The translations under genes were made by a program, and so were the position numbers. The notes below the pieces were generated by a model. It saw only the letters and a list, made by a program, of their open reading frames with translations, was not told the origin of the DNA and did not search any database. This document shows positions 5,594 to 39,593 of a stretch of 64,000 nucleotides of DNA, in pieces. The stretch comes from Capillidium heterosporum. Its lineage: Eukaryota; Entomophthoromycota; Entomophthoromycetes; Entomophthorales; Capillidiaceae. Each line of letters opens with the position of its first letter. Within the stretch, counting starts at the first letter, position 1. The stretch spans positions 496,001 to 560,000 of the forward strand of contig WBMQ01000007.1 of NCBI GenBank assembly GCA_016630905.1. Reading direction: 5' to 3'.

Positions 5594-8563
5594 TTAACCC
5601 ACAAAAAGGAACTTAAGGTCATCTTCAGTGAGACGGGCTAGTGCCGCCGAATCCTTACCGATGGTAGATTGAAACATGGCCTGCTTCTTGGCTTGCAGCT
5701 GCAAGATTCGTGACTCGATCGAGTTTTCAACAATAAGTCTAGTAACCATGATGGGTCGTCGCTGCCCCAGTCTATGGATGCGATCCATAGCTTGGTCTTC
5801 GACGGCTGGGTTCCACCACGGGTCACATAGGAAGACTCTGCTAGCTTCCGTCAAGTTCAAAGCGATACCCCCCGCCTTGAGGGAGACTAGGAATACGGTG
5901 AACTCATGCCGCTTCATGAAGGTCTGGATGACGGCATCACGTTGGGCTGGGCGCATACGGCCATCCAGTCTACAGCAGGCGAAGCCAGCTCGAGTGAGGC
6001 GCCAATGTACGAGGTCGAGGAAATTGACGAATTGGGAAAATACTATAGACTTGATGGTGTAGTCCTTGGATCGTAACTTGTCTAGCTCTTCAACAAGGGC
6101 CTCGATCTTAGTAGAAGAGCGCCACCGGTCCATATTGATACGGTTGACTATAGAGCCCTTGAACTGCTCACCACCAACCTTAAAATCGTTACCTAAACGT
6201 TTCCGTTCTTCAAACTCTTCTTCAAGCTTTTCAAGCTCCGTCTCGTCATCTTCTACACTTACAGTGGGTTGAGTGAGGTCAATAGTTAGAGGTACAAAGC
6301 AGGAGGGGCACTTGGGGTGCATCTCCAAGCTCGAGCTGAGGTACTGGCTAGCGTCCTCTCGACAGAAGACGTGCTTGCATTTGGAGACGATTGGATCTTC
6401 GGCTTCGTCTTGGCATATAACACAGATGAGATGGTTACGTACAGGTGCAGCTGTCGGATCTGGGATGATTCCAGCACCGGTACCGGTTGGAATACGTTTC
6501 AGTATCAAGTCGGGGTGGTTGACGGCTAAGCGCATCTTGGTGATCAACTCGAAGATGTTGGCGTAGTTGTTGAGCACAGTACCCGCTTCAACATAGGTTG
6601 TAAATTTACGCTTGGTATCACTATATAAAGATTCGTACATATCTTCTTCCTCTTCGTTAAAGACATCCCTGCGGATGGTGAGAACTCTTGGTGGTAACCC
6701 AAGGTCATCAGCCTTCTCGTTCTTAGTCCTGCGTAGCATGATGCGATCAAGGATCTTACCCAATTTGATAAAGCCGTCGGCACCTTCACCACGACAACCA
6801 AACTTCTGGATTGGTTTCATGACCTCCGAGTTCCACCAGCAGAAGTGGTTCATGGGGGAACACCCGCAGTCGTTACAGATGGAGTTATTCTTGAAACTCC
6901 ACGACAGCGATTTGCACGGGCATTTCTTGCAGTAGTAGTAGCTGAAAGGGTCAATGCGCAGGAAACGTATCAAGGAGTACAGTTCACCGACTCGGTTCTG
7001 GAGCGGGGTACCCGACAACGCCCACTTGTGTTCAGCATCCAAAGCAAAGGTAGCCCGAGCTGTATTACAGGCCCGATCTTTGATATAGTGACCCTCGTCC
7101 AGGATAACACGGTGCCATTGGGTATTATGAAGTATGGACTTCTCCTTGACCTTGATACCCTTACGCTTGAAACCGTAGTTCTGCTTGCGGAAGCTACTTT
7201 CGATGATGGAGTAGGTAGTCAATATGATATCGTAGTCTTTGAAGGTGTCCAATTTCTTGGTACGGTCGTGGCCATGGAAAAGAAGAACCTTCAAGGTCGT
7301 CGTGTGGTTCTCAATCTCAGCCATCCATTGCATCAAGGCGACGGTAGGAGCAACTAGGAGATTGGGTCGGTGACGGGGTTCTGAGAGCAGAAGGGCAATG
7401 GTCTGGATCGTTTTACCCATTCCCATCTCGTCAGCCAGCAGACCCCCTTTGAATACACTCTTCTCCTGCTGGAGCATCCAGCTGACACCTTCCCTTTGGA
7501 AAGGAAGGAGCTTTAACTTTAAGTCAGAAGGCTGTTCGATCATACTAATCTTGGGTACTTCGATGTTATCTACATCCTTCCAAACATGTTCAAGATCGGG
7601 ATGAACGGCTAGAACTCTTGGATCCTCGCAGGGATGGGTGAGGTAGTATCTTAAGGGTTTGTCTCCAAGTTGTACACCCTTATTTAATTTGGCTCTGGCA
7701 TTACGTTTGGCAGGCCGTGATTGAGCTAGTGGAATATCGGATGAGCTGTCCGAAAACTCGGAAAGAGATTCATCTGCATCGCTTGCTTTAAATTCTGAAT
7801 CACTTCCAACTTTCGAAAGTTTAGCCTTCTTGGTCTTGCTTCTTGTTGATCTACGAATAGGTACAGTGGATTCGGAGCTTGATGGTTTGGAGGAAGACGG
7901 CTTGCTAGTTTCACTTTCACTTTCGGTGACCGGCTCTGATGCTTCAATCTTAGTAATAGTTCGTCTAGCCTTCACAGATTCACTTCTAGTCGATCTACGG
8001 ATAGGTGTAGTGGGCACTGTGCTCAAAGATACGACAGAAGTAGGCTTACTTGCTTCGTCCTCACTCTCATTTTCTGAGGTGATATCTGGCTTACTAAGCT
8101 TAGCTGTACTTCGAGTTACTCTTCCAGTAGCATTTTTAGCTGAACTTGAGGAGATTTCTATAACAAATTGGCTACCACTTGAATTCTGGGACTCCTTTGG
8201 AACTCGTTGTACAGCAGGGAGCTTAAAATCGTCATCAGAGCTTACGAATTCAGTAAAATCGGTAACTTTATACAGAGATTTGGTTTGAGCTTTGGGATTC
8301 CTTGATCTTAGTTGATATGCTATTGACGAGGCTTTAATGTTTTCGATAGCTTCTTCATCTTCATTAGGGACTTTGGGTTGATCGGTCGGGGTGAATACGA
8401 TGCTTGATGAAGTGTCTTTAAAGGTGGTGGATGCCTCAGCACTTATTGGGTCCAATTGGTGTTCAATAGTGCTTTGATCCACTAGACTCATCTCGGTAAC
8501 CTTCTCCTCCTTCTGACTGGTGACTTGTTTGGCTTTCACTCTTTCTGAACGCCTTGGACCCAT
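5594..8563 (-). CDS. RAD16: RAD16-type SNF2 ATPase/RING E3 ligase of global-genome nucleotide excision repair
   Basis: One uninterrupted 989-residue frame. In yeast Rad16 partners Rad7 (NEF4 complex) to find lesions in non-transcribed DNA by ATP-driven translocation, and it carries a RING used in ubiquitylation. Visible here: a Ser- and acid-rich tail (1-300), the helicase Walker A DEMGMGKT (about 378-385), the DEGH box (about 489-492), a Cys-rich insert (about 546-575), a C3HC4 RING from CVICQDEAEDP (about 714) to CPSC (about 752-755), and the C-terminal helicase lobe with SQFVNFLDL, AGGIALNLTEAS and DQAMDRIHRLGQ. Yeast Rad16 is about 790 residues; the excess is in the tail, which carries two PIRRSTRS repeats. 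It is divergent to RAD7 and has a paralogue at 11872-15043. All catalytic motifs are present, so function is likely intact. ORFs on the other strand are shadows. Confidence 0.95.
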   Translation of the reverse strand: MGPRRSERVKAKQVTSQKEEKVTEMSLVDQSTIEHQLDPISAEASTTFKDTSSSIVFTPTDQPKVPNEDEEAIENIKASSIAYQLRSRNPKAQTKSLYKVTDFTEFVSSDDDFKLPAVQRVPKESQNSSGSQFVIEISSSSAKNATGRVTRSTAKLSKPDITSENESEDEASKPTSVVSLSTVPTTPIRRSTRSESVKARRTITKIEASEPVTESESETSKPSSSKPSSSESTVPIRRSTRSKTKKAKLSKVGSDSEFKASDADESLSEFSDSSSDIPLAQSRPAKRNARAKLNKGVQLGDKPLRYYLTHPCEDPRVLAVHPDLEHVWKDVDNIEVPKISMIEQPSDLKLKLLPFQREGVSWMLQQEKSVFKGGLLADEMGMGKTIQTIALLLSEPRHRPNLLVAPTVALMQWMAEIENHTTTLKVLLFHGHDRTKKLDTFKDYDIILTTYSIIESSFRKQNYGFKRKGIKVKEKSILHNTQWHRVILDEGHYIKDRACNTARATFALDAEHKWALSGTPLQNRVGELYSLIRFLRIDPFSYYYCKKCPCKSLSWSFKNNSICNDCGCSPMNHFCWWNSEVMKPIQKFGCRGEGADGFIKLGKILDRIMLRRTKNEKADDLGLPPRVLTIRRDVFNEEEEDMYESLYSDTKRKFTTYVEAGTVLNNYANIFELITKMRLAVNHPDLILKRIPTGTGAGIIPDPTAAPVRNHLICVICQDEAEDPIVSKCKHVFCREDASQYLSSSLEMHPKCPSCFVPLTIDLTQPTVSVEDDETELEKLEEEFEERKRLGNDFKVGGEQFKGSIVNRINMDRWRSSTKIEALVEELDKLRSKDYTIKSIVFSQFVNFLDLVHWRLTRAGFACCRLDGRMRPAQRDAVIQTFMKRHEFTVFLVSLKAGGIALNLTEASRVFLCDPWWNPAVEDQAMDRIHRLGQRRPIMVTRLIVENSIESRILQLQAKKQAMFQSTIGKDSAALARLTEDDLKFLFVG

Positions 8564-8923
8564 CTTTTCAGCTTTAAAAGAAAAATAAAGGTTGGAGAAT
8601 TTGGAAAGCTGGAAAGCTATTGCTAAATCTAAGTCTATTTAAAATCTTTTCCAAGGCCAAGAGTTCCTATTGGCTATCAACTTTGCAAACCTCTTAAACT
8701 AAATCACAATGGCAGGATTAAATTAGGAGTCAGCCAATTGTGTGCAAGTTCCTAAACTGCGAGTTTATTCCAGAAGATAAATACCAATTAAATTTTTTAT
8801 AAATTGATAAAGACCAATGGATTCGTTATGTTTCTAGGCCAATTAAGCGTGCTTAGTAGATAAGGAATTAAATTGGGGCTTGTCTGTAAACTCTACCTTT
8901 CTTTGAAGCAAAAGAATTCGAAA
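8564..8923. promoter_or_regulatory. Divergent RAD16/RAD7 promoter
   Basis: About 360 bp separate the two start codons, so both repair partners are probably driven from one bidirectional promoter. The stretch is AT-rich and contains no ORF. I see no element whose function I can name with confidence; the call rests on gene orientation and spacing. Confidence 0.6.
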
Positions 8924-10827
8924 ATGGTTAGAGGTCCACGATCAGCTTTAACTGAATTTCTTGCGGTAAGTGCTTTTGCTAAAGTTCAAAACTGATTTAT
9001 AATACTCTTAGGAAAAGGGAATTCGAGCTACCAACCCAACACCAAGGGCACAGCCCCCAACTCAAGGTCCTGCTGAAACTAATGGACCTGGTGTAAGTGG
9101 CGAAACCGAAACCAACAGCCAGCAACCAGCTCAAGGAAATAGTGAAGATATGGTCGTTGTAAACCTTGTATCTGATGACGATGAAAGAACAGTGCAAGTT
9201 GAAGCTATATCCTCAACCAGCTTTACAACCCGATCAGGAAGGACCATTCAATCGACTACCACCTTGACAACTTCCAACCATAGTACCGAGAAGAAAAGCT
9301 CAACCAAAAAGAAAGGTAAGAAGGGTGGGAAGCGTAAAAAAGGAGAAAGTAAAGGGTCTGACAGCGATTCGAATAGTGACGACGAATTTCTACCTAGTCC
9401 CTCGTCAAATCCTAGAGCCCGATATTCCCGCTTCAACCCTTCTCTCGACGATGCAACCCCCCTCAACGGTTTGACGTTCTGCTCCAAATGTAATACCAGA
9501 TTCATCGTAAAACCCACTACCTTGCCAGATTCTGATGGAAAGTTCAACTGCGGGAACTGCGATAAGAACTTGCAAAATCGAACTAATCAAACTAAACGAA
9601 GCAGAATGGCAAAGCGCGACAAAGCATTGCAGGGGAGTACCGGTTGGTTTGACTTGGAAAAAATACCTACCCTTCAGGCGTTATGCATCAGTGTTATCGC
9701 TGATAATTCGAATTTAGTCCAATCCTTGTATGGATTGAGTGAAAAATCGACTATCCAGATTGCTAGGATCATGTCGAAGCATAGAAAATTGGACGACGTC
9801 ACTTTACCGCTTTTCCTTGCCCCACTAAGTAACTCTTTAAGTTTATTCGATTGTGCACGACTCAACGAGGAAAGCTTGAGCAGCATTGCTATGACCGGCG
9901 CAGATTTGACAAATTTGAAGCTAATGTTTTGTGGACAGATGTCCGATATAGTGGTCGATGTATTTGGTAAGCATCTGAATAATTTAACTCATCTTACGAT
10001 CCACGGTGGCTTCCTGGTTACCGATAGTGGCTACGCTGGTATGCTGGATAGTTTGGGATCCCAGTTACATCAGCTGTCGATTCGACACTCGCCTCGATTC
10101 CATATAAAATCGATGCAGGCCTTGGTTAATAATTGTAAAAGATTAGAGCACTTGGACCTTAGTGACTGCCAGAAGCTAGACGACACTTGTATTGACTTGT
10201 TGATTACTGCTGGGGATACAAATGTCGAACCGGTTTTAAAGAAGCTCGTTGCTTTAGATCTATCGAGTCGTAGCACCTTGATCACCGAAATGAACTTGAC
10301 TAAAGTTTTAGGAGTTGTTGGCATCCAACTTGGATACACTCAAGCTCAATAACTGGACCAAGCTTCAGGATGATGATCTTCTTCCTATCGTATCTGTCTT
10401 TAGCAAAGTTACTCACTTGGAACTCTCCCACTGTGAAAATTTGACTGGTGCTAGTCTCAACCCCCTGCTCCAAAACGTAGGCCAGTCTGGGTCATTTAAA
10501 CACGGGCTAAAGGTATTGAATCTAGAGTTCTGCTCTATCGAAGTCAATAACGAAGTCTTACTCACTGCTCTAAAGTTCCACCACAAATCGCTTGTCGAGT
10601 TGAATATGGCTGGGCTGGATAAGTTGACGGATAAGGGGTTAAGGGATGGGTTTACCACCTACCCACCGGTAAAACTACATATTTTAAATTTGAGTTGGGT
10701 TAGAGCAGTAAGCGACCCACTCCTTAGTGGACATTATTCCTGGTTTAATTTGGTTGAGAGAGCTGAGAGTTTGGGGTTGCCATTTAGTGACGGAGTCGCT
10801 ACCCAGATTCATGGTAGATCTAACTGA
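8924..10827 (+). CDS. RAD7: RAD7-type LRR damage-recognition protein with one internal frame break
   Basis: Partner of Rad16 in yeast NEF4. Exon 1 (8924-8965) encodes MVRGPRSALTEFLA; a 46-nt intron (8966-9011) follows, and exon 2 resumes with EKGIRA. This rebuilds the family N-terminal signature SALTxFLxxxGI, which settles the start. Then come a Ser/Lys-rich linker, a CxxC..CxxC zinc site (CSKCNTRF ... CGNCDK), and leucine-rich repeats to the C-terminus. The frame changes by one base near 10295-10352: the upstream frame ends at 10352, while the LRR continues one frame over from about 10300 (LLASNLDTLKLNNW). Removing one base gives 618 residues, against 565 in yeast. The break could be a sequence error, a real mutation or frameshifting. 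A gene with this degree of conservation is unlikely to be long dead. Confidence 0.9.
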
Positions 10828-11871: not shown

Positions 11872-14800
11872 ATGATTCCAAGCTCAGCTAAGGAAGAACC
11901 CAAGAAACTAGTTACCAACAAAGAAGTTACCAAAAAAGCCATAACAGACCAAGGTATTCTCAGCCTTCTAAATCAGCTTACGGGCGGCAATGTATTCGCA
12001 ACTTCCGAAGATACCACTTCGAACGAACTGGCAAACTCATCCTCTCAGTTCGAAATCCCCAATAGCGATGTATTATTATTAAAGGATATAAATGAAGCTA
12101 TGATTCCGAGTTCAAGTAAAGAATATCCCAAGCAATCAATAGACGGTAAGAAAGGAAAGGATATCCAAGCAGGTTTAGCAAGCAAAGATATCAGAGATTT
12201 CCTTCAACTTAATGATGACGAAGCATCAGCCACATCTCAAGATACCAATTTGAATGAACTAACAACCTCAATCTCCAAGTTTAAAGTCTTTAACAATGAT
12301 GCAGGCACAAACTCAAATTCCAAAGTTACTTCAGTTGAGCACCGACTTAATTCAAGGCAGGTTGAAACTTCTACCGTTGACTTGACACAACTTACAAGCT
12401 CAGATGAATATTCAGATTCTTCACCAGCCCTCATTGACTTAACTTTAGATTCAAGTATCGATGAAGATGCAGATTTTTCGCTGGCTTATAGTAATGTGTC
12501 TCGACAATCGAGCATCAATCACAATATCAAATTCAATTCACTAGTACAACAAACAACATCAACCGAAGTTCTACCATATCCTAGATTTGATCAATTTCCA
12601 ATTGAACTCGACTCCTCTTTGGTCCTCTCAGCATTTTGGAAGTGCAACTCAAACCACATCTAGAGTCAGAACTCTGGATATTGCCACATGTATTAATGGT
12701 AAGCTTTTAAACCCATATTCACTCTAATACTTGATATAAACTTAACAGAGGAACCTATTTATAGGTCCAATACGAATGGCTTATTCAAAAAAGCAAAAGT
12801 TTTAACAGCTACTGGAGATTTCAAGGTAGAAAATAATTTGACTGGTGAAATTGATCTGGTTGATCCTGCAGATACGTACGAACCAGTCGAAATACTATCG
12901 GACGACTCCTGGTGTACTAAACTTGAGAAACGGAATTTCATCAATAATAGAAATAGGAAAGTGCGCTCCAAAAAGCCACCAAAGCACTACAGCACCCATC
13001 CCTGCGAAGACCCAGCCGTTCTAGCCAACCACCCCGATCCTCACTTACGTCTGGCAGAATATGGATAGGATTGAGGCATCTGGAATTAGAATGATTAAAC
13101 AACCTTCTGATCTCAAGTTGAAGCTCCTTCCCTTCCAATTAGAAGGCGTCAGCTGGATGCTTCGACAGGAAGCGAGCATCTTCAAAGGGGGTCTACTTGC
13201 TGATGAAATGGGGATGGGCAAGACGATCCAAACCATTGCCCTCCTACTCTCGGAACCCCGGAATCGACCTAGCCTCTTGGTCGCCCCCACTATTGCCCTG
13301 ATACAGTGGATGGCTGAGATCGAAAGCCACACAACGACTTTGAAGGTACTCATTTTCCATGGCTCCAACCGTACCGACGATTTAAGCAGTTTTGACGACT
13401 ACGACGTTGTGCTGACCTCCTACGGCACCGTTGGACATAGCTTAAAGAAAGAGGAAATCGGTAGAAAATCTAAAACCACAAATGAAATGGTTAAGAAGCC
13501 ATCCATACTGCACCAGATTAAGTGGCACCGGATAATCCTGGACGAGGGTCACTACATCAAAGCCCAGAATACCCTTGGAGCCAAGGGTGTCTTTGCCCTA
13601 CAAGCCGAGTATAGGTGGATATTATCTGGTACTCCCTTGCAAAACCGAATCGGGGACCTGTACTCGCTTGTACGCTTTTTGAGGATCAATCCATTTAGCT
13701 ACTACATATGCCAAAATTGTCCTTGCAAATCGCTATCGTGGGACAGCAAGTATGGTATGTGTCATCAGTGTAGATGTCCGTTGATCAATCACTTTTGCTG
13801 GTTTTTCACCGAGATTACGACACCAATCAAGAACTACGGCTTCAAAGGTCCAGGAGGCGTCGGGTTTGCTAAGCTGCGGAGAATCTTGGATATTATTATG
13901 CTGCGAAGAACTAAGAAGGAGAATCTTGACGCAATATGTCTGCCTCCCCGTGTCCTATCCGTTCGCAAATGTTTCTTCAACGAGAAGGAGGATGCTGCCT
14001 ACCAATCTTTATTTACGGAATCACGGCGTGAATTCTCAAACTATCTTAGAAATGACTCGGTCCGCGAAAACTATGTAAATATTTTAGCATTGATTACCAA
14101 GCTACGCATGGCTGCCGACCACATAGACCTGGTTCTCAAGCGTATCCCAATTGGTATTGGTGCTGGCATTAGGCGAGACCCAGGATCTATCTCTGTAGAT
14201 AACCACTTCATATGCGCTTTATGCCAGGACGAGGCTGAGGATCCTATCATTTCCAAGTGCAAGCACATTTTCTGCAGGGAGGATGCCAGTACATATCTAG
14301 AAACTAGCTGGGAGGATGCTCCCAACTGCCCCACCTGCTTCAAGCCTCTAATCGTTAACCTTGAACAACCTACCTTTGAAATTGAAAGTGATGACAGTGA
14401 CGCTAACGGATCTGAAGAGGAGATTGAAGAACTTGGACGTCCAGGTAACAGTTTCAAGGTCCCTGAGCTACAGCCTCGAAGCACCATAGTCAACCGCATG
14501 AACCTGAATCAGTGGCGGTCCTCCACCAAGATAGAGGTCCTAGTCGAAGAATTAGCTAAGCTACGGTCTGAAGATTATACTATCAAATCCATTGTCTTCT
14601 CTCAGTTTGTCAGTTTCCTGGACCTCATACACTGGCGGCTAACTAAAGCTGGGTTCTCCTGCTGTCGATTGGATGGCACTATGACCATCACTGAACGGGG
14701 CACCATCGTTAAAACCTTTATGGAGCACCACAAGTACACCGTCTTCCTCGTTTCCTTGCGGGCTGGTGGCATCGCCCTAAACCTTACCGAGGCTAGTCAA

Positions 14801-15043
14801 GTGTTCATATGTGATCCTTGGTGGAACCCAGCGGTAGAGGATCAAGCTATGAATCGGATCCATCGCTTAGGTCAGCACCGACCTATACTCATCACTAGGT
14901 TAGTCATCGAGGACTCGATTGAGAGTCGCATAATTCAACTGCAAACTAAGAAGCAGGCCATGTTCGATTCTACGATTGACAAAGATTCGACGGCTCTTTC
15001 CCGCTTGACTATAGATGATCTCAAATTCCTGTTTAAGGTCTAG
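11872..15043 (+). CDS. Second RAD16-like SNF2/RING protein, diverged N-terminus and two frame breaks
   Basis: Paralogue of the RAD16 at 5594-8563. The 660-codon core (13061-15043) has Walker A DEMGMGKT, the DEGH box, the Cys-rich insert, the RING CALCQDEAEDP and the C-lobe motif DQAMNRIHRLGQ. The N-terminal part (from the ATG at 11872) is Ser/Asn/Asp-rich and lacks the PIRRSTRS repeats. It includes an internal repeat (MIPSSAKEEPKK / MIPSSSKEYPKQ). I infer a 50-nt intron at 12699-12748. Two one-base frame changes interrupt it: one between about 12605 and 12663, the other near 13045, where the frame ending HPDPHL.. must jump to VWQNMDRIE to match VWKDVDNIE in RAD16. Correcting both and splicing gives exactly 1040 codons. 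It may be functional with sequence errors or a young pseudogene. Two intact-looking ATPase lobes argue for recent selection. Confidence 0.75.
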
Positions 15044-15585: not shown

Positions 15586-16589
15586 TTAATCTAACTCATG
15601 GTTTCTCAGCCTTATTTTAACTCCACTGATGGGAATAGGATTTTCAAAATAAGCATGCCAGTGCTTCATTAGTTGAAAACTAATATTGTAGTGGATTTGA
15701 AGAGCTGTGAGAAATCCTGGTCTAGTTCCTACTTTACCGCCATAATCTTCAAAATTATAAACTTTAATTAGATTTGATGTCAACCTTCAAAGTGCAAGTT
15801 TTAGAGCATATTTATACCCCTGTGCATCCTAGTTATCAAATGGCCTTTATATATCAATTTACTTCCAATATAAAGCTATTTTAATACATAATTAAAAAAT
15901 AATATAGTTATATATCCTTTATCCCTGACATTCCAATACAGACTCTACCCTTACTGATTTTCTACAAAAATTACTAAGATGTTAGTATATATTTAAATTT
16001 CCATCTATAAATAAAAGTTATATCAGTATATTTTTTTAGATGGCTTTGAAACATATGTGATCCCATCCATATTAAGCTTTACTTTTCAAACCTAGTTTGA
16101 AAGGAATGGAAACTAAACTAAGATTAAATCCTACCATACTTATATAGCGCTTGTTAAAGAAAAACCTACAGTTTATAATTGCATAGTATAAAAGTATACC
16201 TGTTTGCCAATAAATTAGCTAGAGGACAATGTAGGTTTGGATTGAATGACTTTTCATAGTTTACGGTCATGATGGCGTTGGGTAGAGTTTTGATATTAGT
16301 AGCTGAAACCAATCTAGTAACTAGAGTTTTTTGTGGACCTGAAGAGTTTAACAAAATATAGGTTTGATCAATTAGTTATATAAGGTACTGAAACTATCAA
16401 ATAAATACAAAACCAAGCATTGAAGTACACTGCCATCAACTTTATAATATAACTATAGGGCTGATATCTCCTTCCAGAACCCAAAAAGTATATTTGCGTT
16501 CCACATATATCTAAAAAGAATCTAACTTTGCTTACAGATTTAAGCTCAATTAGCAGCGCTAGGCAATAAATTAGAAACCAGTTCGCCAT
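15586..16589 (-). pseudogene. Array unit 1: decayed - strand gene, family unknown
   Basis: Three short open pieces on the - strand (16368-16589, 16166-16354, 15586-15783) are collinear with pieces in the other units. The first begins MANWFLIYCLALLIEL and has a counterpart near 21450. The second carries a LVSATNIKTLPNAI block matching a LASANSIKALPSGI block near 24100. Stops separate the pieces and no good splice sites join them. I do not recognise the family. Its 5' end faces the TATA box of micro-gene 1, so the two would be divergent. Confidence 0.4.
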
Positions 16590-16736
16590 AAATACTTTCA
16601 GAATAATAATAATAAAAATATACCCCAGCTCACGTTTAAACTAATCAAGGGCTAACCAAATTCCGGATTAGAGCTGGATTCGGAAAATTTTAGTATATGG
16701 TACTTTGATATTCGAAACGAAAAGGTAGACGAAGAG

Positions 16737-16744
16737 TATATAAG
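16737..16744 (+). promoter_or_regulatory. TATA box of micro-gene 1
   Basis: TATATAAG lies 87 bases before the micro-gene ATG. The element TTTGATATTCGAAA sits at 16704-16717, about 30 bases further upstream, and recurs at the same spacing in unit 4 (21583-21596). Confidence 0.6.
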
Positions 16745-16823
16745 GTGAATACTTTCAAATAAACCAGCATAAAAACCAAATAGCTTTACCATCCATCTAA
16801 ATTCTACTCGTATCCTTCAAAAT

Positions 16824-16886
16824 ATGGTTCCAGGAGGTCCTTTGATTACCAAGATCAGAAGTGCTACAAAACCTAAATCTCAATAG
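16824..16886 (+). CDS. Micro-gene 1: 20-residue peptide MVPGGPLITKIRSATKPKSQ
   Basis: A 20-codon frame with ATG and TAG, repeated at the same place in each array unit. Between copies most changes fall at third codon positions (GTT/GTC, GGA/GGC/GGT, ACA/ACC, AAA/AAG, TCT/TCC) or are synonymous (AGA/CGA), so the peptide is kept better than the DNA. It is basic (K and R) with a Pro-Gly-Gly start and no signal peptide. A TATA box lies upstream and AATAAA at 16992-16997 downstream, giving a complete unit of about 260 bp. I do not recognise it. The antisense frame shares the same wobble positions, so codon pattern alone does not prove the strand; the preserved ATG, stop, TATA and polyA signal favour +. 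Confidence 0.55.
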   Translation: MVPGGPLITKIRSATKPKSQ

Positions 16887-17332
16887 ACCATACTGTTCAA
16901 CTGCAATCACTACATTTCCAGGAGATTCTATTTACATATACAGTCGATGTACTCTTAGAACATCAGCATCATCACTATACACTTCATTCTTAATAAAAAT
17001 TAAAAGATTAAGCTTTTTTCATACTGAATTCTTCGTTGTCTATTATTTGAACTTAAATTGATTTTGCAGCCAGAATTTAGCATATTTTTAAAGGAAGGTG
17101 AATGTTATCGTTAGTAAAGATTAATATTAAATCTACAAATACGTGCCAAAATTGTATTCTACAATCCTGTAGTATACTACAACAAATTTTTTACTTTCAA
17201 AACTAAGAGAATATATATATTCCATAGAAAATCCTTAATATTTGTGGAAAGTTCATAAGCTTGGAATACCAACATCCTTTCAATGTCTATTTAATACTCT
17301 AAACTATATGTGTTGATAATGACTTATATATC

Positions 17333-18034
17333 TCACAAACGATCTCCCACTTTGAATTGCTGGCTGCAACCGTAGTGGCACTACAAATTACTTCAAAATT
17401 TTTATTCCGAACCTAATATATAAGATAAGATCGATTTCTACATTACGGCTACATCTATTCAGCTTAGAAAATGATGTATACTTTTCAAATTGGCCGGGTC
17501 TTTGTTCAAAATTTCTGAACTGGGTAGTAATCCGAAACTAATTTCGTATTAATATATTGGCCAGTGAACTCTTCCATCCATCATTATCCGATAGCTATAA
17601 AATGATACTAAATAAGCTAAAAATAAAAATATACATATTTGTTCTTTAGGAATATATTGTCAGAATTCCATAGTTATTCGAAGGAAATCGTCAAAAGGAC
17701 TAAATGAATTCGACCATCATTTTATCAAAGAACACTTTACACTTGCAGATTTTACGGCATAGGGATATATTTGGTTGTTAACATAGTAACTAGAGAAGAG
17801 TATAGGTTGGTATTGTAAGGCTTTTCTTTACACAAAAGGAATAGGGCTCAGCGGACTTTGATGCCAGTAGCTAAGGCTAATATATTGATTAACATCCTTG
17901 GTAGACGTCAAATCCTCAGAAAAATATGGGCTTATCCATCTATTATGTAGATTATCAAAGCTACTTAATTTACACGAAGCCAAAAATAGAGACCTATCAC
18001 CAACTTTCAAAAAAATTACTTCAAATATCTTCAT
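17333..18034 (-). pseudogene. Array unit 2: decayed - strand gene, family unknown
   Basis: The largest piece is 17828-18034, containing SSFDNLHNRWISPYFSED followed by LTSTKDV. This block recurs in units 3 to 6 with the pattern YFSExLTSxK. Downstream on the - strand are EFTGQYINTK near 17560 and SNSKWEIVCEIYK near 17345, each matched in unit 4. Stops and frame changes separate them. The repeated protein-level resemblance shows that this strand was once coding. No family assigned. Confidence 0.45.
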
Positions 18035-18385
18035 CTAATCCTTAAAATTTACCTACCTTAGATCTATACTTAATTTAGATCAACTCTTAATGCGGACAAA
18101 TGTTTTAGCTAACCAAAGCTATCCAATAAATTAGAAAAGTGATCCAATTTTACAGTTATCGGAGCATGTACAAGAAAGGTGTAGTCTGAATCACGTTCAA
18201 TCAATTCCAAGATCACCTAAATTCCGAAATGAAGCTAGACTTAGTGATTAAGTACAAGGCCAAGATTTTGATTTCGAAGAACAGATGAAGAGTAGTTAAA
18301 GGAATGGCATTTCGAGGCAAACCAACATAAAGTTAAATGGCACTTCATTTATTCAGACGATATTCCTTTTCACTTCCTACAAACT

Positions 18386-18448
18386 ATGGTTCCATTTGGG
18401 TCTATGATAACCAAGATCAAAGACATTTTGGAGTCTAAATCCCAATAG
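18386..18448 (+). CDS. Micro-gene 2: 20-residue peptide, most diverged copy
   Basis: Reads MVPFGSMITKIKDILESKSQ and ends at the conserved TAG. It keeps the length and the ITKI core but has lost the Gly pair and two basic residues. The upstream TATA is degenerate (gtagttaa near 18296), while a TTTCGAAG element remains about 25 bases before it. ATTAAA follows at 18534-18539. It may be a fading copy. Confidence 0.45.
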   Translation: MVPFGSMITKIKDILESKSQ

Positions 18449-19489
18449 ACTGCTTTGTTCCTAAACTAGCTCCCTATTTACATTCAAAGTTGATATATTT
18501 TTGGAACCCAATATTGCGACTATATAGTATATTATTAAAAGCTAAAGTATTTGTTAGTTTATCATATATTTTTAATTTAACCATTCTTTTTAAATAGGGA
18601 GCTCTAATAAGCTTTACATTCGTTACGAATCTTTATATATTCAACTAACGTTTCAAACAAAATAAATCTCGTAGAGGTTACAATATTAAACTAATCAAAC
18701 AATATTTTGATTACAAAATTGAAAATATTTACCAAAAGCTAATAAACTTGAAGTATAGATATCCTCTCAACGCCTTTCAAAGTTTTCATAAGCCTCATGC
18801 AGCGTCGATGACTTAGATATTTCAAGAGCCTTTTTCTTTTAAGCTTTGAACGGTATCTTAACAACCTTGCCAACTTCTGTAAGGTGTCCCACTCTAACAT
18901 CAACAGGCTTAAGGATCGAATCTTTGTAGTATAAAATCTAGAGCTTGGCTCAGGAATTCATGTGATATTTTAGTTCCATATGGGCTAACATTTGGAATTA
19001 TTAAACTTAGTAGTAGTCTAAAATTAGTTTTTGGTTACTATGAGTTAAAAATTTTGCTAATGATTGAAGGCATGCTGCTTAAGTTTTGATCAATTCTGTA
19101 TTAAATATCTAAAGATCTGAAAATAATAAAGTGTAGGTTATCAATTTAAATTTCTACAAAATGCCTATGAAATACTTGAGGAGAAATTGCTTGCAAAAAT
19201 TTTAGATCATATATTGGATGCAGAGCTTTGCCAAACTTTAGTAGCCTAAAGAGTATTTAGGCAGAAAATTCAGCATGAAACAGCAATAGAATAGTTAAAG
19301 GGTAACAGCTATATACACATATAAGGCAGCTGCGCAAAAAATTAATCAATTGGATTACCATTATGCCAAGAATCAACATACACATGCAAATTTTGTGAAA
19401 AAAAATATATGGTAACTCCTATACCAAATAGGCGGCATTGTAATTTAATCATGGGTTACTTTTATTTTTGTTTGATGGTTTAACATCTG

Positions 19490-19640
19490 GTAAACTTTTG
19501 ATACAATTAAGACTAATTTATCAGTAGCATTTTTTGCAGACGTAAAATGCTCAGAAAAATATACTTTTGTCCATCAGTAATGTAAGATATCGACACCATC
19601 TAATTATCACAAAGATATATATCCAAGAGTCTCATCACCA
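19490..19640 (-). pseudogene. Array unit 3: fragment of the decayed - strand family
   Basis: On the - strand the stretch reads DILHY, a stop, then WTKVYFSEHFTSAK. It is aligned with DNLHNRWISPYFSEDLTSTK of unit 2. The remainder of this unit, 18550-19490, is AT-rich with no block I could align confidently. Confidence 0.35.
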
Positions 19641-19887
19641 ACTCTCCAGTAAGAGTATAAGGTTATCGCTTCCATCAAAAATGCAAGAGTAGACCTTCAT
19701 TCCATCCATTCCAAAAAAGCTCCAGTATATAAATTATAGCTATACTAGTCTAAATTTTAATATATTGGAAAACCAATTTATAATCAATATAGTTTAGGTT
19801 TGCCCAGAATAGAGTAAAACTATATTTGGAAGTTCAGGATTAGCGATGCGATATCCTAACATTCGAAACTGAGAGGTAAGCAAAGGG

Positions 19888-19895
19888 TATATAAG
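19888..19895 (+). promoter_or_regulatory. TATA box of micro-gene 3
   Basis: TATATAAG lies 92 bases before the ATG, with ATTCGAAA at 19861-19868 about 27 bases upstream, as in unit 1. Confidence 0.55.
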
Positions 19896-19979
19896 ATGAA
19901 TATACTTTCAAATAAGTCGGCATAAAAATTAACTAGCATTTCCACCTATCCAAACGTTACTCTTTTCATCCTACAAACC

Positions 19980-20042
19980 ATGGTCCCCTTTGCTTCTTTA
20001 ATTACCAAGATCAAAAGTGCTAAAAAGCCTAAATCCAACTAG
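19980..20042 (+). CDS. Micro-gene 3: 20-residue peptide MVPFASLITKIKSAKKPKSN
   Basis: Same length and stop position as copies 1, 2, 4 and 6. It keeps ITKIKSA and the KPKS end; FAS replaces GGP. ATTAAA follows at 20161-20166, within the conserved 3' block TATACTACCTCACTCATTAAA that recurs in units 5 and 6. Confidence 0.5.
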   Translation: MVPFASLITKIKSAKKPKSN

Positions 20043-20629
20043 AAGTCTTGTTCAAAAGCTAAAGCTGTTCTTCAAGCCACTTTATTTGCATTTATAGATG
20101 CTTTACCCTTAGAGCCTAGATTCATAGAAATCACTATATTTACTGTATACTACCTCACTCATTAAAGTTTGAAACTAAATTCTGTTTACTCCTAATTTTT
20201 ATAGTATATTTTACTTTTCAGCAGAGGGATACCTGACAAAATACTTAATTTTGTTGCAACCTTGTTATATAAAATAACATATTAATCAAAAGAAGCGCTA
20301 TAGAAGTCAAAATATTAAGTTAATTAAATAATTTAATCAATCGTAGTCTTTTTCGATGATATATTTGTATATTTGAAATACCGATAACCCTTAAACATCT
20401 TTTAGTATGAGTACTACATGAGTACAGTTTGTGCACAAAGTATAGGTTTAAACTTTTGAAGATTATATATATAATTATTAAAAAATAAGAACTATCTAAA
20501 TTAAAAGTGATAGATCTAAAGTTAAATGTTTCAATCTACAGTTTGTGCATATACTATAGGTTGGCTAACAAATTTATCACTGTAATACTAGAGTTAGTAC
20601 AGTTTAAACTTAAAGTGCTAATAGCTTAT

Positions 20630-21480
20630 ACATCTCGCAAGCCAGTTTCCACTTTGAATTGCCAGCTGAATCTATAGTAGGCTTGTTAGTTTCAACTAGG
20701 AGCTACTCCCCAGATTAACCAAAGCATAAAGAGCAATGCTCATCTTGTAAACGCAAATAATTTTTGTCAGGACTGAAGAGCTTTTCAGTAGAATGTGGAT
20801 TACCGCACAAAATTCCTACATTGAGCAATAATCCGAAATTAGCTTTATTATCAATATATTGATAGATGAATTCTGTCGTCTGTCGTGAAGGACTACCTAC
20901 AAGACATAATTATGGAAAGCTTTCAAACAAAGATTGTGCTAAATATACGGGAAATTAATAGTCTAGTATAGATAAAAGGCAGTATTAATTGCAATGATTA
21001 AGTATATCCAAAGACCATTTTACTAAACTAGTATAGCTTATTTTAGAGCCGACTTGTATTTGCAAATTTACGGCATAAATATATATTTGGCTATTAATAT
21101 TGACCTAGAGAACAATATAATTTTGAAATAATCTACATTACACTTTCTTGACGGAATATCGTCCCGAGTTTTTGATATAAGTGATCAAAACTATTCATTC
21201 TTACATATCCCTCGGTAGACGTTGAACGCTCGATAAGATACAACCTTTGTCTATCAGTCATGTAAGGTAATAAGACCACAAAAGAATTTCAAGTTAAACG
21301 TTGAAGGACCCTCACTAAATTTCAAGCATATCTATACTGCTGATCCTTCTATCTGATCTCAAAAATTTAATATATACTCCACCTATATCCAAAGGAAACC
21401 AGATCTTGCATGCTAATAAAACGTTTATTAACCTGAACTATGTAATAAATTGGAAATTCAGTTCACTATAAGGATTTCCG
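20630..21480 (-). pseudogene. Array unit 4: decayed - strand gene, family unknown
   Basis: The best-preserved stretch of the - strand family runs from about 20870 down to 20640. One long open piece reads FIYQYIDNKANFGLLLNVG and then GILCGNP..FSPDKNYLRLQDEHCSLC, followed after stops by AGNSKWKLACEMYK. Other blocks are YLIERSTSTEG near 21240 and ISNLL near 21450, matching the start of unit 1. Several stops remain. It looks like an ordinary soluble or membrane-associated protein, but I cannot name it. Confidence 0.45.
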
Positions 21481-21614
21481 GTGCAATTCCAAAAAAGGTC
21501 TAGTAAAGTTCACGTTTCCTAGAATCGAGGGCTTGCTCAATCCTGACTTAAAGCTGAATTTGGTAGTTTGCGCTAGCTATACTTTGATATTCGAAAAAAC
21601 TAAAAGATAAAGAA

Positions 21615-21623
21615 TATATAAAG
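21615..21623 (+). promoter_or_regulatory. TATA box of micro-gene 4
   Basis: TATATAAAG lies 93 bases before the micro-frame, with TTTGATATTCGAAA at 21583-21596, identical to unit 1 over 14 bases. Confidence 0.6.
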
Positions 21624-21707
21624 GGTGTCTACTTTCAAATATTTCGACATAAAATCAAATAGCAGCATCACCCATCCAAACACTACTTTTCACATCCATC
21701 GCAAAAT

Positions 21708-21770
21708 ATAGTCCCAGGCGGTCCTTTTATAACCAAGATCAGAAGTGCTACCAAGCCCAAATCCCAATAG
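21708..21770 (+). pseudogene. Micro-gene 4: start codon lost (ATA)
   Basis: The frame is otherwise intact and reads (I)VPGGPFITKIRSATKPKSQ to the conserved TAG, close to the array consensus. The initiator is ATA in place of ATG. The TATA box and AATAAA (21840-21845) remain. It may be silent, use a near-cognate start, or carry a sequence error. Confidence 0.45.
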
Positions 21771-22195
21771 ATCGTTTCCTTCTAAAGTTAGACCTACATT
21801 ACAAGAAACTTTTTCATTTTTAGATCTCAATATCATCTCAATAAATAGTTTTAATAGTGATACTTTTATTTTTTTGATATATCATATTTTTAGCATGTAG
21901 CGGCTGATTTCACTATAGGAAGTTTTATACATTTTTAAAAAAATAGGGTATGTTCACGAATGACTATAATCTTAACTTTAGACATGGGTATTTAAGTTCC
22001 ATTTAGTAATACTATATCAAATTCCATAAAACCCACTACCTTTTAGATTCGAAAATATAGGCTCAAATAGAGCAAATTTTCTATCACGAGCTCTCAATAT
22101 TTACGTAGATTTCTCGAAATTGAAGTTTTAATATCCCTTTGTCTGCTTTTAAAGCTCCTTATCTACATATAATACTGGTTGCTTGGATTCTCATG

Positions 22196-22960
22196 CACCA
22201 TTTTTTACTTTTAATTACCAGCTGTAGTCTAATAACTTTACCATTTACTTCAAAAAGTCAGCTCCAATATAACAGGTAGATTGGAGTGATGGTTTACATT
22301 GTGAAAATGTATAGCTATGGTCAGAAATGACGAAAACTTTTAAAACTGCATAGGGACTACCGCTAGGAATTTTTGATGCGAATAGTGCTTAAATCAGCTC
22401 CTTGCCAATATATTTGTTGGTGAACTCTTCAATCTATCGTTGATCAGTAGTTTACAAAACGCGATATAGGCAAAATTTTTAGCCTAAAATTGCCACTAGA
22501 AAAGTTAAAAAGCAAATGGATATATATGTTCATAAAAGGGAATTTTAAATAGCCTGATATATCCAACTATAGCTTCACTAAAATAGTATACCCTTTGATA
22601 AAATCGATGGAATTTTAAAGTTACGGCGGAAATATATTTTTGGTTATCAACGTGCTAACTAGGGAATAAAATAGTGTCATTGGATCCCTTCTTTACGCCG
22701 AATGGAATAATTTCGATAGATCTTTGATATGAGTATTGAACTATAATCCAGCATATAGGCCTTTTGCAGATGTCAGACGTTCATCAAGGTATGGCTCTCA
22801 TCAATCATATAAGATAGTGAGGCTACCTAACAAACTCAAATCCAAGTATTGAAGTGTCTGTCCACAAATTTTCAAATGGTTCTATGCAACTGACGCCTCC
22901 ATCTGATCTCAAGAAATATACCTAAAAGATATCGAATCCTAAATATATATTTAAACTATA
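22196..22960 (-). pseudogene. Array unit 5: decayed - strand gene, family unknown
   Basis: Aligned blocks on the - strand are EPYLDERLTSAKG near 22780, EFTNKYIGKELI near 22420, a following open stretch with SGSPYAVLKVFVISDHSY, and GADFLK near 22260. Order and spacing match units 2, 4 and 6. Stops interrupt it. Confidence 0.4.
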
Positions 22961-23128
22961 TTAGCCCAGGCTCTGCTAATGCATTGGAAAACCAGATCTC
23001 GCTTAATAAATCCAGGGTTACTTAAATCCGAGCTTATGGCTAAATTTAGAAACTCAAAGAAGCTCTAACATCTGTATCCAAATAACCGACAGTTGACATA
23101 TAATGGAATATATTTCCAAGAGATCTCA

Positions 23129-23136
23129 TATATAAA
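23129..23136 (+). promoter_or_regulatory. TATA box of micro-gene 5
   Basis: TATATAAA lies 64 bases before the ATG, closer than in the other units (87-93). Confidence 0.5.
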
Positions 23137-23192
23137 AAGCAAATACAAGTATCACCTACTTGGACATTATCCTTCAGTACATCTTACAAACC

Positions 23193-23288
23193 ATGGTTCC
23201 AGGCGGTCATATAATAGCTAAAATCAAAAATGCGACCAAACCCAAATCCAGCCAGAACATTTCGTTCAAAAACCAACCTGTTCTTTAA
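23193..23288 (+). CDS. Micro-gene 5: stop lost, extended to 31 residues
   Basis: Starts MVPGGHIIAKIKNATKPKSS and then reads through, because the conserved TAG is CAG here. It continues for 11 more codons to TAA at 23286. AATAAA follows at 23357-23362. The replacement of the stop suggests weaker constraint on this copy. Confidence 0.45.
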   Translation: MVPGGHIIAKIKNATKPKSSQNISFKNQPVL

Positions 23289-23589
23289 AAGCATCTTTAA
23301 ATACATGCAAAAATATATCCTTAGTACTCATTTCGTTGTTGCATACTGGCTCATTTAATAAAGTTTGAAGTTTAAACATTTTGGACTTGTGCTTTCCATT
23401 GATTTTTAATATAATTAACCATCCAATTGAATATATATGTCATTTATTAATATTTCTACATTAAACTGACGTTAAAAATAAAAGTATTATGGAAGCTAAA
23501 ATATAAATATAATAAGAGTTCCGTCCCAAAGTATATTTCGGAAATTTTGCTAATCTTCATATGTCATCAAAATCTCGAATGGCTCAGGT

Positions 23590-24250
23590 CATCGCACACA
23601 TTAAACTACCGGTTGTAGCTCTATAACTTTACCAGCCACTTCAAGGAATTCAATTCCAGCTTTGTTGGCTAAAACGAATAGATGCTCAAACTGCAGCTGT
23701 CTATAGTTTCACCCACAAGCTTATGAATACTTGCAGTTGACCACGTTTACTATTACAAAATCTTTGATAGGAGTACTGGAGTTTGGATCGTATCAATATA
23801 GTGATTGTTGAATTCCCCCTTCACCAACAACTGAAAATGTTGCTTCTCGCGTTAAAAGCAACACTTTTAGCCTAAAAGTATCGCTAAATAGGTTAAAATT
23901 GGATTTCCAATATACACATGAAAGGCAATTGTCCAATAGGTAAACTAGTTGTATATCATTTCCCCAAGGATATTTTACACGTGCAAGTTTTATGACAAAA
24001 AGAATACACTTGATTACTAATATATTGAATAAAGAGCAGTATAGGGCGTCGCTAAATAACTTTTCATTTTGGCCGTATCAAATTCCGCTAGGTAAAGCTT
24101 TTATACTATTAGCTGAAGCTAGTCCACTGCTTAACTTTTTCAATAGATATCAGATCTTCGGTAAAATAGGATCCCTTCCAATAATCCTGTAAGATATTGT
24201 AACTACTTAATGAGCCAGTTTTCAGATGTCGAAGCATGCTATCACTGACT
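23590..24250 (-). pseudogene. Array unit 6: decayed - strand gene, family unknown
   Basis: Blocks on the - strand: NILQDYWKGSYFTEDLIS near 24180, LASANSIKALPSGI near 24100, EFNNHYIDTIQTPVLLSKIL near 23800, and AGIEFLEVAGKVIELQPVV near 23640. All have counterparts in the other units. The + strand ORF at 23992-24192 is a shadow. Stops prevent a full product. Confidence 0.45.
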
Positions 24251-24561
24251 TTGGAATAGTTTAAATTATTGGTGCTTCAATTCAAAGTCCAAAAAAGTAG
24301 ATCTAAGATCCATCTATACCTAATATGTATCCAATCCTGTTCACGGCGTATCGCGTTATTAGCTAAAACTACCAAATTCCGCCATTTCGTACTACTATGA
24401 GCATCTTATTCCCTTACATTTCAGATGTTTAAAGAAAGCAATATATTTGAAAACATGTTCACGCTTTATATAACTTAGGGTACATAAATTCTGACTAAAG
24501 CCAAACTTGCAAATCTAGCTGTCGATTCCTTGATATTAGCGTCTAAATGTTCGATTGTTGG

Positions 24562-24570
24562 TATATAAAG
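24562..24570 (+). promoter_or_regulatory. TATA box of micro-gene 6
   Basis: TATATAAAG lies 93 bases before the ATG. Confidence 0.55.
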
Positions 24571-24654
24571 GGGATACATGTGGAATTAACTCGATATAAA
24601 AACTAAACAGCATCACCACTTACCTAGACGCCATCTCCCTACAGCTTACAAATA

Positions 24655-24717
24655 ATGGTTCCAGGTGGACCTTTTATAATCAAAATCCGAAGTGCTACAA
24701 AGCCCAAACCCAGCTAG
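24655..24717 (+). CDS. Micro-gene 6: 20-residue peptide MVPGGPFIIKIRSATKPKPS
   Basis: Intact ATG-to-TAG frame at the last unit. The codons differ from copy 1 at many wobble positions while 16 of 20 residues match. ATTAAA at 24818-24823 lies in the conserved block TATACCACCTCACCTATTAAA. The array ends shortly after. Confidence 0.55.
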   Translation: MVPGGPFIIKIRSATKPKPS

Positions 24718-24850
24718 ACAGTTTCGTCCAAAAGTTAACACCATATCAAGACACTTTTTGCATTCATAGTAAATATACATCTAAAATATAACCCCATTAT
24801 TGTATACCACCTCACCTATTAAAATTTGATGCCTCAGCCTTTTATCCTAC

Positions 24851-25672
24851 ATTTTTTGTTGTATACTATTCTTTTAATATAGCTGGAAGTCCAATAAACT
24901 CTACATTCTATACAAAACCAACTTTTAATCAGTAAATATGTAGAAGCCAACCTATAAAGGTATATATTACAGGCACTATATTCCAAGCTATTTTTATAAA
25001 TTACATCAACACCGTTGAGGTGATAGATATTTAATATCGACATAATTGCTGATATTTAAGTGGTATATTAATATCAAATGATCGCTTGATGTGTGACATT
25101 ACCACATACTTAGAAATCAATTGAAAAGATAAAGCTGATTAGTATTTAGTGATATGCGTTTACTTTAAATTTTGAAAAGTAGTAAACTATAACTTTCAAG
25201 CTGCTTATGTAAGTGGCTGATACATTCAAAGTCTAGCTGTAGCGTTACAACTATCTTGAGAAGGGGCCACTTTACTCTTCCTATATCTTTCCTGGAATAT
25301 CTGCTGAAAATCGCTGTAGTTTCATCAAATCCTTTACAACTACAAGCTCTTTAGTGAAGACAAGCCAAAAACAGGCACTTGAAATTTATATATTCATATA
25401 TAAAGTTACTATTACATGCAAATAGAGTAGTTGTGCTCAAGGAGCACAGGTCCAGGTGCAGCTGATGGATGCTAAATTAGCCAGTCTCATCATTTTGTAA
25501 GTTGTTAGGTCTATTCAAACAAGTTGCCGCACTTCATTACTGGCTATGATTGACACTGAAACTTCGATGACGTTGCTTGGAAATGATTAAAACCAATCTT
25601 CTTTTTGGAATCAATACAAGCAAGCTTAACCAAATACTCGAATATTTAAGATAGACATCCGACTTGTTCAAC
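24851..25672. other. Spacer between the array and the F-box cluster
   Basis: AT-rich with no supported gene. It ends with the F-box family element aatcaatacaag (25609-25620), about 55 bases before the next ATG. Confidence 0.5.
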
Positions 25673-27223
25673 ATGGTCCAGTTATCCGAGCTACCAATAG
25701 AAATCCTCAATGCCATAATCTCAGCGACCGATACGAAAACTCAGTCTATATTGGCTCAAACCAACCAAATATCCCATCAACTTTCGACAGCTCATATCTA
25801 CAGAGATTTGGACATGTTTTCAATTTGGGATTGCAAAAACTTCACCAAAATGGAGTTTAAAGCTCTAGTTTGCAAATTCAACAGCCATATTCGATCTTCT
25901 AACAAGCTGTTCATAGATTCCAACTTACCTGAGGTCGGCTTATACCAGAACTTAAACTCCTACTTTGAAGTGGTAGCTGATCAAACATACTTTGATAGAG
26001 TTGTAGACGTTGGGTTAGATAACATCCAAATGTTAAGCTCCTATGGCCTACATTTTCTAGAATCCAACAACGCTTCAGGAAATGATACCGTAGATATCTC
26101 AGGTTTAGGTCCCATTCTCCCCAATCTAGAGCTTTTCAAGGTGCATGGATCCTATTCTCGACTGAATACTAGTTGGTTAAATGAAATCAGTATGCCAAAG
26201 CTAACTAATCTGGAACTCGAAGTATATAAGCTTTCGCAGATTGAGTTCCAAGCCATCCAGAAAGCTTTCCCAATTTGAAAGTACTTTCGTTAGATTGTGG
26301 CTATGGACATGGGCAAGGATTTACAATGCAATTCATCTACTTAATGCCAAACTTGAAAACTCTAAAGGTTAGTATGACAGCAGTGACATCGAGTTTTGTC
26401 ATTTCGGTTGGTAAGCAGTGCCCCAATGTTAGGTACATGCATCTAATTATGGAGAGCTTTGAAGTAATCGAAGAAACTTTGCTATACTTGGGATGCTTGG
26501 TTCAACTAATAGTGAATATTTTTGTGATTAATAATGATGGCTTGAAATACTTGCAAAAAATATTGATTAAGAGGTGTTTTCCAAAGCTCAAGAGGCTTGA
26601 AATGCCTTCACTCGAAAGGTGGAATGCACCTAGTGAGGACAATACCTATGGAGCTAATGATGACCATTTTCTTTCGAGAGATACTAGCTTCTGGTTCGAC
26701 CTCGAAGTCTTGGATCTACCCCGATTCCAGTTCAAAAAGACCTCTCAACTACCCATGTTGCTTAACTTACAGGTACTTACCCTTAAGTTGGATTGCAATG
26801 CCGAAACAAACTCTGTAGCATATCTATTTACTTTCTTGCCCAACTTGAAATGCCTCCACCTCGACTTTGCCTGCTTTACGACCAACCTTTTCAATTTTGA
26901 GCCCACCGTAAAGCTTAAGCAGCTTACTCTGGAGAACTTAAGCTGTATCGACATCTCATTTGTTCACTTTCTGACCAAACTACCAAGCTTACAGAAACTT
27001 GAAGCTGATATTCTGTGAGCGCTACAATTTGAAAGTCGACTTTCAGCTCCCAGATATCAAGTTCTTTGAGCTACTCAATTTGAGATTGGATTTCGCACCA
27101 GTTGAACTGAAGCATTGGTTTGTAGAAAGCGCAGTTGCTTTGTTCAAATTGAACTACCATTATAAGAAAAGTAAGAATCACCATGTCTCTAAGACAAAGT
27201 TCTTTCATTGGGATAACGTCTAG
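25673..27223 (+). CDS. F-box/LRR protein with two frame breaks that restore net frame
   Basis: F-box proteins are SCF ubiquitin-ligase adaptors: the N-terminal F-box binds Skp1 and the repeats bind a target. The start MVQLSELPIEILNAIISATD is an F-box, and leucine-rich repeats follow to the end TKFFHWDNV. Three open pieces (25673-26278, about 26270-27018, about 26999-27223) belong to one protein. A base seems missing in the run ttcccaat near 26269, and a base is extra near 27016 (KLEADIL / ERYNLKVDFQL). Correcting both gives 516 residues, exactly the length of the intact paralogue at 37701-39251. It is either a recently broken gene or an intact gene with two sequence errors. A preserved upstream family element supports expression in the recent past. 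Confidence 0.7.
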
Positions 27224-30380: not shown

Positions 30381-30809
30381 TTCAACGACCCTTACAAGGA
30401 TTAAAATAAGTTTGGTGGACATCTATGCTATTGGCTCGATATTATCTAATTCATATTGAACAGACTAGTAGAGCTTTCTCATGTTTTGAGAAACTATTTG
30501 TATCTGTAAGTAGTAGCAAAGTATACTATACCACTGAGTAGCATGTCCAATAAAAGATCCAAACTGCATGTTTTACTGGTTACTTTTGACCCAAGACTTG
30601 GATGACGTTTGGCCAATCCTCTATTTCATCAGCCTTTCGAAATAGCAACCCTTTCTATCAATACAAGAACTAGGTTTTACAAGAGCCTGTACATCTGAGA
30701 TAACATCCAGCTCGATTCAACATGAGCCAACTATCAGATCTCCCCAACGAAATCCTGGTGGAGATAATTTCAGCATCCTGACAAAAAAACTCAATTTGTT
30801 ATAGCTCAA
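30381..30809 (+). repeat. 429-bp inverted duplication, copy A
   Basis: Nearly identical to the reverse complement of 39165-39593. By eye I count three substitutions and two one-base indels. It covers the promoter and the first roughly 30 codons of the F-box gene. One indel, an extra C at about 30778 (cagcatcctg against cagcatctg), shifts this copy out of frame. Homology ends sharply at 30809. Confidence 0.9.
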
Positions 30810-39251: not shown

Positions 39252-39593
39252 GTTGAATCGAGCTGGATGTTATCTCTGATGTACAGGCTCTTGTAAAACC
39301 TAGTTCTTGTATTGATAGAAAGGGTTGCTTATTTCGAAAGGCTGATGAAATAGAGGATTGGCCAAACGTCATCCAAGTCTTGGGTCAAAAGTAACCAGTA
39401 AAACATGCAGTTTGGATCTTTTATTGGACATGCTACTCAGTGGTATAGTATATTTTGCTACTACTTACAGATACAAATAGTTTCTCAAAACATGAGAAAG
39501 CTCTACTAGTCTGTTCAATATGAATTAGATAATATCGAGCCAATAGCATAGATGTCCACCAAATTTATTTTAATCCTTGTAAGGGTCGTTGAA
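39165..39593 (-). repeat. 429-bp inverted duplication, copy B
   Basis: Promoter and 5' coding part of the intact F-box gene. Reverse complement of 30381-30809 with about five differences. The frame is open on this copy, so it is the likely donor and the other the recipient. Confidence 0.9.

Follow-up and report, generated by a model that had tools for sequence, protein, structure and literature searches.

Known small-gene systems and the locus

Short genes overlooked by annotation have been described in fungi as small open reading frame (smORF) or microprotein genes (PMC7394265), and they resemble the locus reported below in being short frames missed by annotation and found through conservation. 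The locus differs in that its frame of 20 codons is very short, in that it consists of six tandem paralogues within one genome, and in that the conservation on which it rests is between paralogues rather than species. The mark of the class, a short ORF under protein-level purifying selection, is found here. Twenty codons lie near the lower limit for recognising any gene, and since six paralogues stand in one array and can be compared internally, the locus offers a clean test of paralogue conservation for genes below the annotation limit.

Two further systems invite comparison. The arginine-attenuator-type regulatory upstream ORFs (uORFs) of fungi are similar in length to the 20-codon frame; unlike them, the micro-ORFs have no main ORF in the 900 nt downstream. 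The F-box/LRR family of the locus itself is close in position and perhaps weakly alike at the N-terminus, but the micro-ORFs have neither an F-box or LRR body nor a common promoter with it, and their peptide is four residues shorter than the F-box/LRR N-termini before a shared Gln.

In the present study we analysed a window of 64,000 nucleotides from Capillidium heterosporum (contig WBMQ01000007.1, positions 496,001 to 560,000, forward strand). Judged from the sequence, its six blocks are probably copies of a lineage-restricted, decaying gene family for a basic microprotein of about 20 aa.

The tandem array and its six short frames

The array and the frames within it, a frame of 20 residues having been proposed for each unit by the original prediction, are as follows:

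16132..24916, + strand, tandem array of six diverged units (self-comparison and unit alignment)
16824..16886, + strand, copy 1 ORF, MVPGGPLITKIRSATKPKSQ followed by TAG, complete
18386..18448, + strand, copy 2 ORF, MVPFGSMITKIKDILESKSQ followed by TAG, complete, diverged
19980..20042, + strand, copy 3 ORF, MVPFASLITKIKSAKKPKSN followed by TAG, complete, diverged
21708..21770, + strand, copy 4 frame, IVPGGPFITKIRSATKPKSQ followed by TAG, with ATA as start codon
23193..23288, + strand, copy 5 ORF, codon 21 CAG and not TAG, giving a 31-aa frame
24655..24717, + strand, copy 6 ORF, MVPGGPFIIKIRSATKPKPS followed by TAG, complete
19039..19213, + strand, dispersed repeat between copies 2 and 3, outside the micro-ORF family (genome matches)

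A script found all six copies where they had been placed, with the predicted ATG in five (copies 1, 2, 3, 5 and 6; ATA in copy 4) and the predicted TAG at codon 21 in five (copies 1, 2, 3, 4 and 6; CAG in copy 5). The net charge of the peptide is +4 or +5 in five of the six copies and +1 in copy 2. Four copies look intact, 1 and 6 being conserved and 2 and 3 drifted; copies 4 and 5 are formally broken, the former through its missing ATG and the latter through its missing stop. With two of the six broken and two drifted, the family seems to be shrinking.

The six units are spaced 1562, 1594, 1728, 1485 and 1462 bp apart by self-comparison. Local alignments of unit against unit (n = 19, E <= 1e-3, up to 2 kb long) gave 57.9-66.5% identity, and whole-unit global identity between array copies was 49-57%. 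When the unit alignment was divided into 146 overlapping windows of 60 columns, those over the micro-ORF ranked first in conservation (0.72; mean 0.53, SD 0.066), and the next-best covered the TATA box and the leader. The 1.5-kb units are old, diverged tandem copies in which the 20-codon frame and the promoter are best preserved.

Read in one minus-strand frame, two unit bodies (17720-18013 and 23959-24258) show 34% likeness across about 100 aa; in coding tests the unit body did not rise above noise. The dispersed repeat at 19039-19213, about 175 bp long, has nine other matches in the genome, seven of which are aligned with sharp ends, and it looks SINE-like; Rfam, run on four of its loci, returned no match supporting that reading.

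A genome-wide search with the consensus, as the original prediction had proposed, recovered only places within the array, at limited sensitivity. More widely, protein searches (consensus, copies 2 and 3), DNA searches (copies 1-2, 3 and 5) and a degenerate pattern allowing up to 3 mismatches found no family member outside the array in the 29.5-Mb genome; the dispersed repeat was matched elsewhere. The DNA searches were of low sensitivity, one query recovering itself only and another one further known copy. Because they overlook known copies, and because only the best first-look candidates were scored, distant copies could be missed. Viral contigs held no exact match to the pattern.

Promoter-like and poly(A)-like flanks

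The elements located around the six frames, all on the + strand, are these:

16737..16743, + strand, TATATAA of copy 1; others start at 19888, 21615, 23129 and 24562 (copies 3, 4, 5 and 6)
16711..16716, + strand, TTCGAA of copy 1; others start at 18273, 19862 and 21590 (copies 2-4)
16992..16997, + strand, AATAAA of copy 1; AATAAA or ATTAAA also starts at 18534, 20161, 21840, 23357 and 24818

As predicted, TATATAA precedes the start by 64-93 nt in five copies (-87, -92, -93, -64 and -93 in copies 1, 3, 4, 5 and 6); the script found none upstream of copy 2, and that of copy 5 (23129) lies off the aligned position of the other copies in the unit alignment. An upstream element had been placed about 28 bases before the TATA box in copies 1-4. 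TTCGAA is present in those four, starting at -113, -113, -118 and -118, and absent from copies 5 and 6 in the script check, but its distance to TATATAA is 25-26 bases start to start, and this holds only for copies 1, 3 and 4.

Past codon 21, AATAAA or ATTAAA occurs in all six copies, starting 70-119 nt downstream, which agrees with the original prediction; the AATAAA of copy 4 is off the aligned position of the others in the unit alignment. Since these hexamers occur at 3.9 per kb across the AT-rich array, their downstream presence alone says little. The blocks had been put forward as self-contained transcription units of about 260 bp; the repeat is larger, its real unit being about 1.5 kb.

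Protein-level constraint on the frame

The changes between copies are concentrated at wobble positions, as had been claimed: pairwise differences number 73, 62 and 123 at the first, second and third codon positions, so that across the six copies third positions change at 1.7-2 times the frequency of the others. Of 100,000 column shuffles, 6 attained the amino-acid conservation score, pN/pS across the copies was 0.45, and constraint at the protein level was equalled in 5 of 5,000 simulations matched to the observed identity of the copies. The coding signal stops at the TAG, downstream of which Z is -0.2. The 20-codon frame has been under protein-like constraint that ends at the shared stop. Charge, codon-position bias, the shuffle test and the matched simulations agree with the earlier proposal of a short basic peptide under selection, and it is fairly well supported from these alignments that the coding signature, in so very small a frame, is real and unusual.

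The TATA box and leader are conserved as well, as they would be if the block were a DNA or RNA element, e.g., a promoter or a noncoding RNA, with a frame open by accident. We consider this quite improbable, as synonymous change is in excess, the consensus RNA structure for the micro-ORF family contains 0 pairs, and Rfam at gathering score found no family in the window. No tRNA was found in the window either.

A stand-alone gene or part of something larger

Within 900 nt past the stop, the plus-strand ATG ORFs reach at most 34, 14, 30, 28, 66 and 23 aa for copies 1-6, and the longest, that of copy 5, begins 736 nt past the stop. The majority sequence of the unit has a longest ORF of 63 aa, a length reached by 195 of 300 shuffles. 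These figures bear on the idea that the frame is a conserved-peptide uORF that regulated translation of a since-lost main ORF downstream. A short ORF soon past a TATA box and a constrained peptide would both fit such a role, but no main ORF is found behind any copy over these 900 nt, and every stop has a poly(A)-like hexamer in the next 119 nt; of the readings weighed here, we give this one the least credence.

Hardly more probable is a spliced gene of which the frame would be the first exon, with the TAG inside an intron. RNA polymerase subunit genes of the same genome match in pieces, as spliced genes would, and copies 3 and 6 share GTATAC at an aligned place past the stop. Against this, copies 1 and 5 have no donor of the GTRNG, GTNNGT, GTAA or GTAT type over the first 260 nt from the start, and no second coding block appeared in the unit among 51 testable gap-free windows.

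The signal ends at the stop, and neither a further exon nor a main ORF was detected, as expected of a stand-alone gene. Since no RNA structure, second block or long ORF was found, and copies 1 and 5 lack a donor, a 20-codon gene with its own promoter is the simplest reading.

The neighbouring F-box/LRR genes

Downstream of the array, the stretch 25.7-41.2 kb contains F-box/LRR genes and pseudogenes; a single decayed copy is found on the far side of the RAD genes, at 2.1-3.7 kb. The copy nearest to the array is:

25673..27220, + strand, F-box/LRR copy with broken frame, N-terminus MVQLSELPIEILNAIISATDTKTQ (among 16 compared)

The segment ITKIRSATKPKSQ of the micro-peptide lines up with LNAIISATDTKTQ of this copy. 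The frame could be seen as the relic 5' end, i.e., promoter and first codons, of tandem protein genes that have decayed, likeliest of the F-box/LRR family next door, with the coding signature left over from before the death of the genes. We hold this reading to be unlikely, if far from negligible. Live and decayed F-box/LRR copies adjoin the array. A profile of the six peptides aligned residues 7-20 with residues 11-24 of 16 F-box N-termini at a score of 14.1 (P 0.0053), higher than all 150 of 150 column-shuffled controls (maximum 11.9). With an HMM of nine N-terminal sequences the consensus scored 2.6 bits, a value attained by 1 shuffle in 2,000, and in global comparison its score was equalled by 1 shuffle in 1,000 and by 4 of 408 other ATG 20-mers of the window. 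The same cluster, moreover, holds a 430-bp copy of the 5' end of an F-box gene joined onto another copy.

The likeness is nevertheless uneven. The same HMM gave copies 5 and 6 only -2.1 bits, the hhalign probability for the N-terminal profile comparison was only 6.8%, and in local comparison copies 3, 5 and 6 failed to surpass shuffles (75, 143 and 121 of 300); the global score of copy 6 was reached by 22 of 1,000 shuffles and 54 of 408 ATG 20-mers. No F-box/LRR coding remnants were found in the unit body: the highest score of a 15-sequence F-box/LRR profile in the array was -1.3 bits, lower than the best of 4 of 15 shuffled arrays and of one control region, against 11.8-158.6 bits for the decayed copies nearby, and the unit majority sequence had no positive F-box/LRR score and no ORF beyond shuffles. 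Nor is a promoter shared with the F-box/LRR genes: under a model built from the six micro-ORF promoters, which themselves score 43-77 bits, the best of 15 F-box upstream regions scored 1.1 bits, exceeded by 4 of 200 shuffles. A relic would also leave unexplained the retention of amino acids in the frame against a drifting unit body, and the end of the coding signal at the shared TAG. Finally, the comparison was picked after the likeness had been seen. For this reason, and because the body and promoter tests fail, we treat the F-box origin as a rival and not as a verdict.

The 430-bp segment is an inverted copy, 98.8% identical between 30381-30809 and 39165-39593. It comprises the promoter and about 29 first codons of the F-box gene at 39251 (-), joined onto the F-box copy at 30722 (+); owing to a one-base insertion, the frame left there is 19 aa long. 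Elsewhere in the genome, contigs C10 and C13 (L016-L019, L020) carry four F-box/LRR matches of equal score, three of them on C13, with one inner TGA each; a fifth match, on C10, has no inner TGA. All five are 37-38% identical to the window gene.

A candidate microprotein family

Returning to the microprotein gene family that we favour, each gene would comprise an upstream element and, 64-93 nt ahead of the start, a TATA box, followed by the frame of 20 codons and then a poly(A)-like signal. Such a gene may have been amplified as 1.5-kb tandem units, in which purifying selection would have maintained the basic peptide, about 20 residues long, as the remaining sequence drifted. Decay by birth and death may account for the present state, with copies 1 and 6 conserved, copies 2 and 3 diverged, the ATG of copy 4 lost and the stop of copy 5 lost. 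The micro-ORF is presumably transcribed and translated. Going by the charge, +4 or +5 in all copies but copy 2, one may guess, speculatively, that the product is a free microprotein that binds an acidic partner or a membrane. The roles first proposed for the peptide, in signalling, defence or binding, are likewise conjectural.

As to how the family was born, one might speculate on the capture of a promoter and first codons from a neighbouring F-box gene. That an F-box 5' end was copied alone, had its own stop fixed, was amplified and was then selected as a free 20-residue peptide appears to us distinctly unlikely; its role, to give a speculative example, would be to compete for a partner of the F-box proteins encoded next door. 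Were the F-box link true, the locus would show a microprotein family arising from a larger gene's 5' end, next to a cluster in which a 5'-end copy is still visible.

Other genes in the window

The gene at 9012-10827 (+) has the DNA repair protein RAD7 as its best match among solved structures, and it is flanked by inverted SNF2-RING helicase genes of the Rad16/Rad5 type at 5594-8638 (-) and 13025-15043 (+). Rad7 and Rad16 are partners in yeast, which makes this clustering notable. Changes of reading frame without an evident intron, as small indels would cause, occur in the RAD7-like gene at 10200-10440 and in a P4-type ATPase gene at 44760-44860 and 46240-46400; in both genes they read as assembly errors or as damage to the genes.
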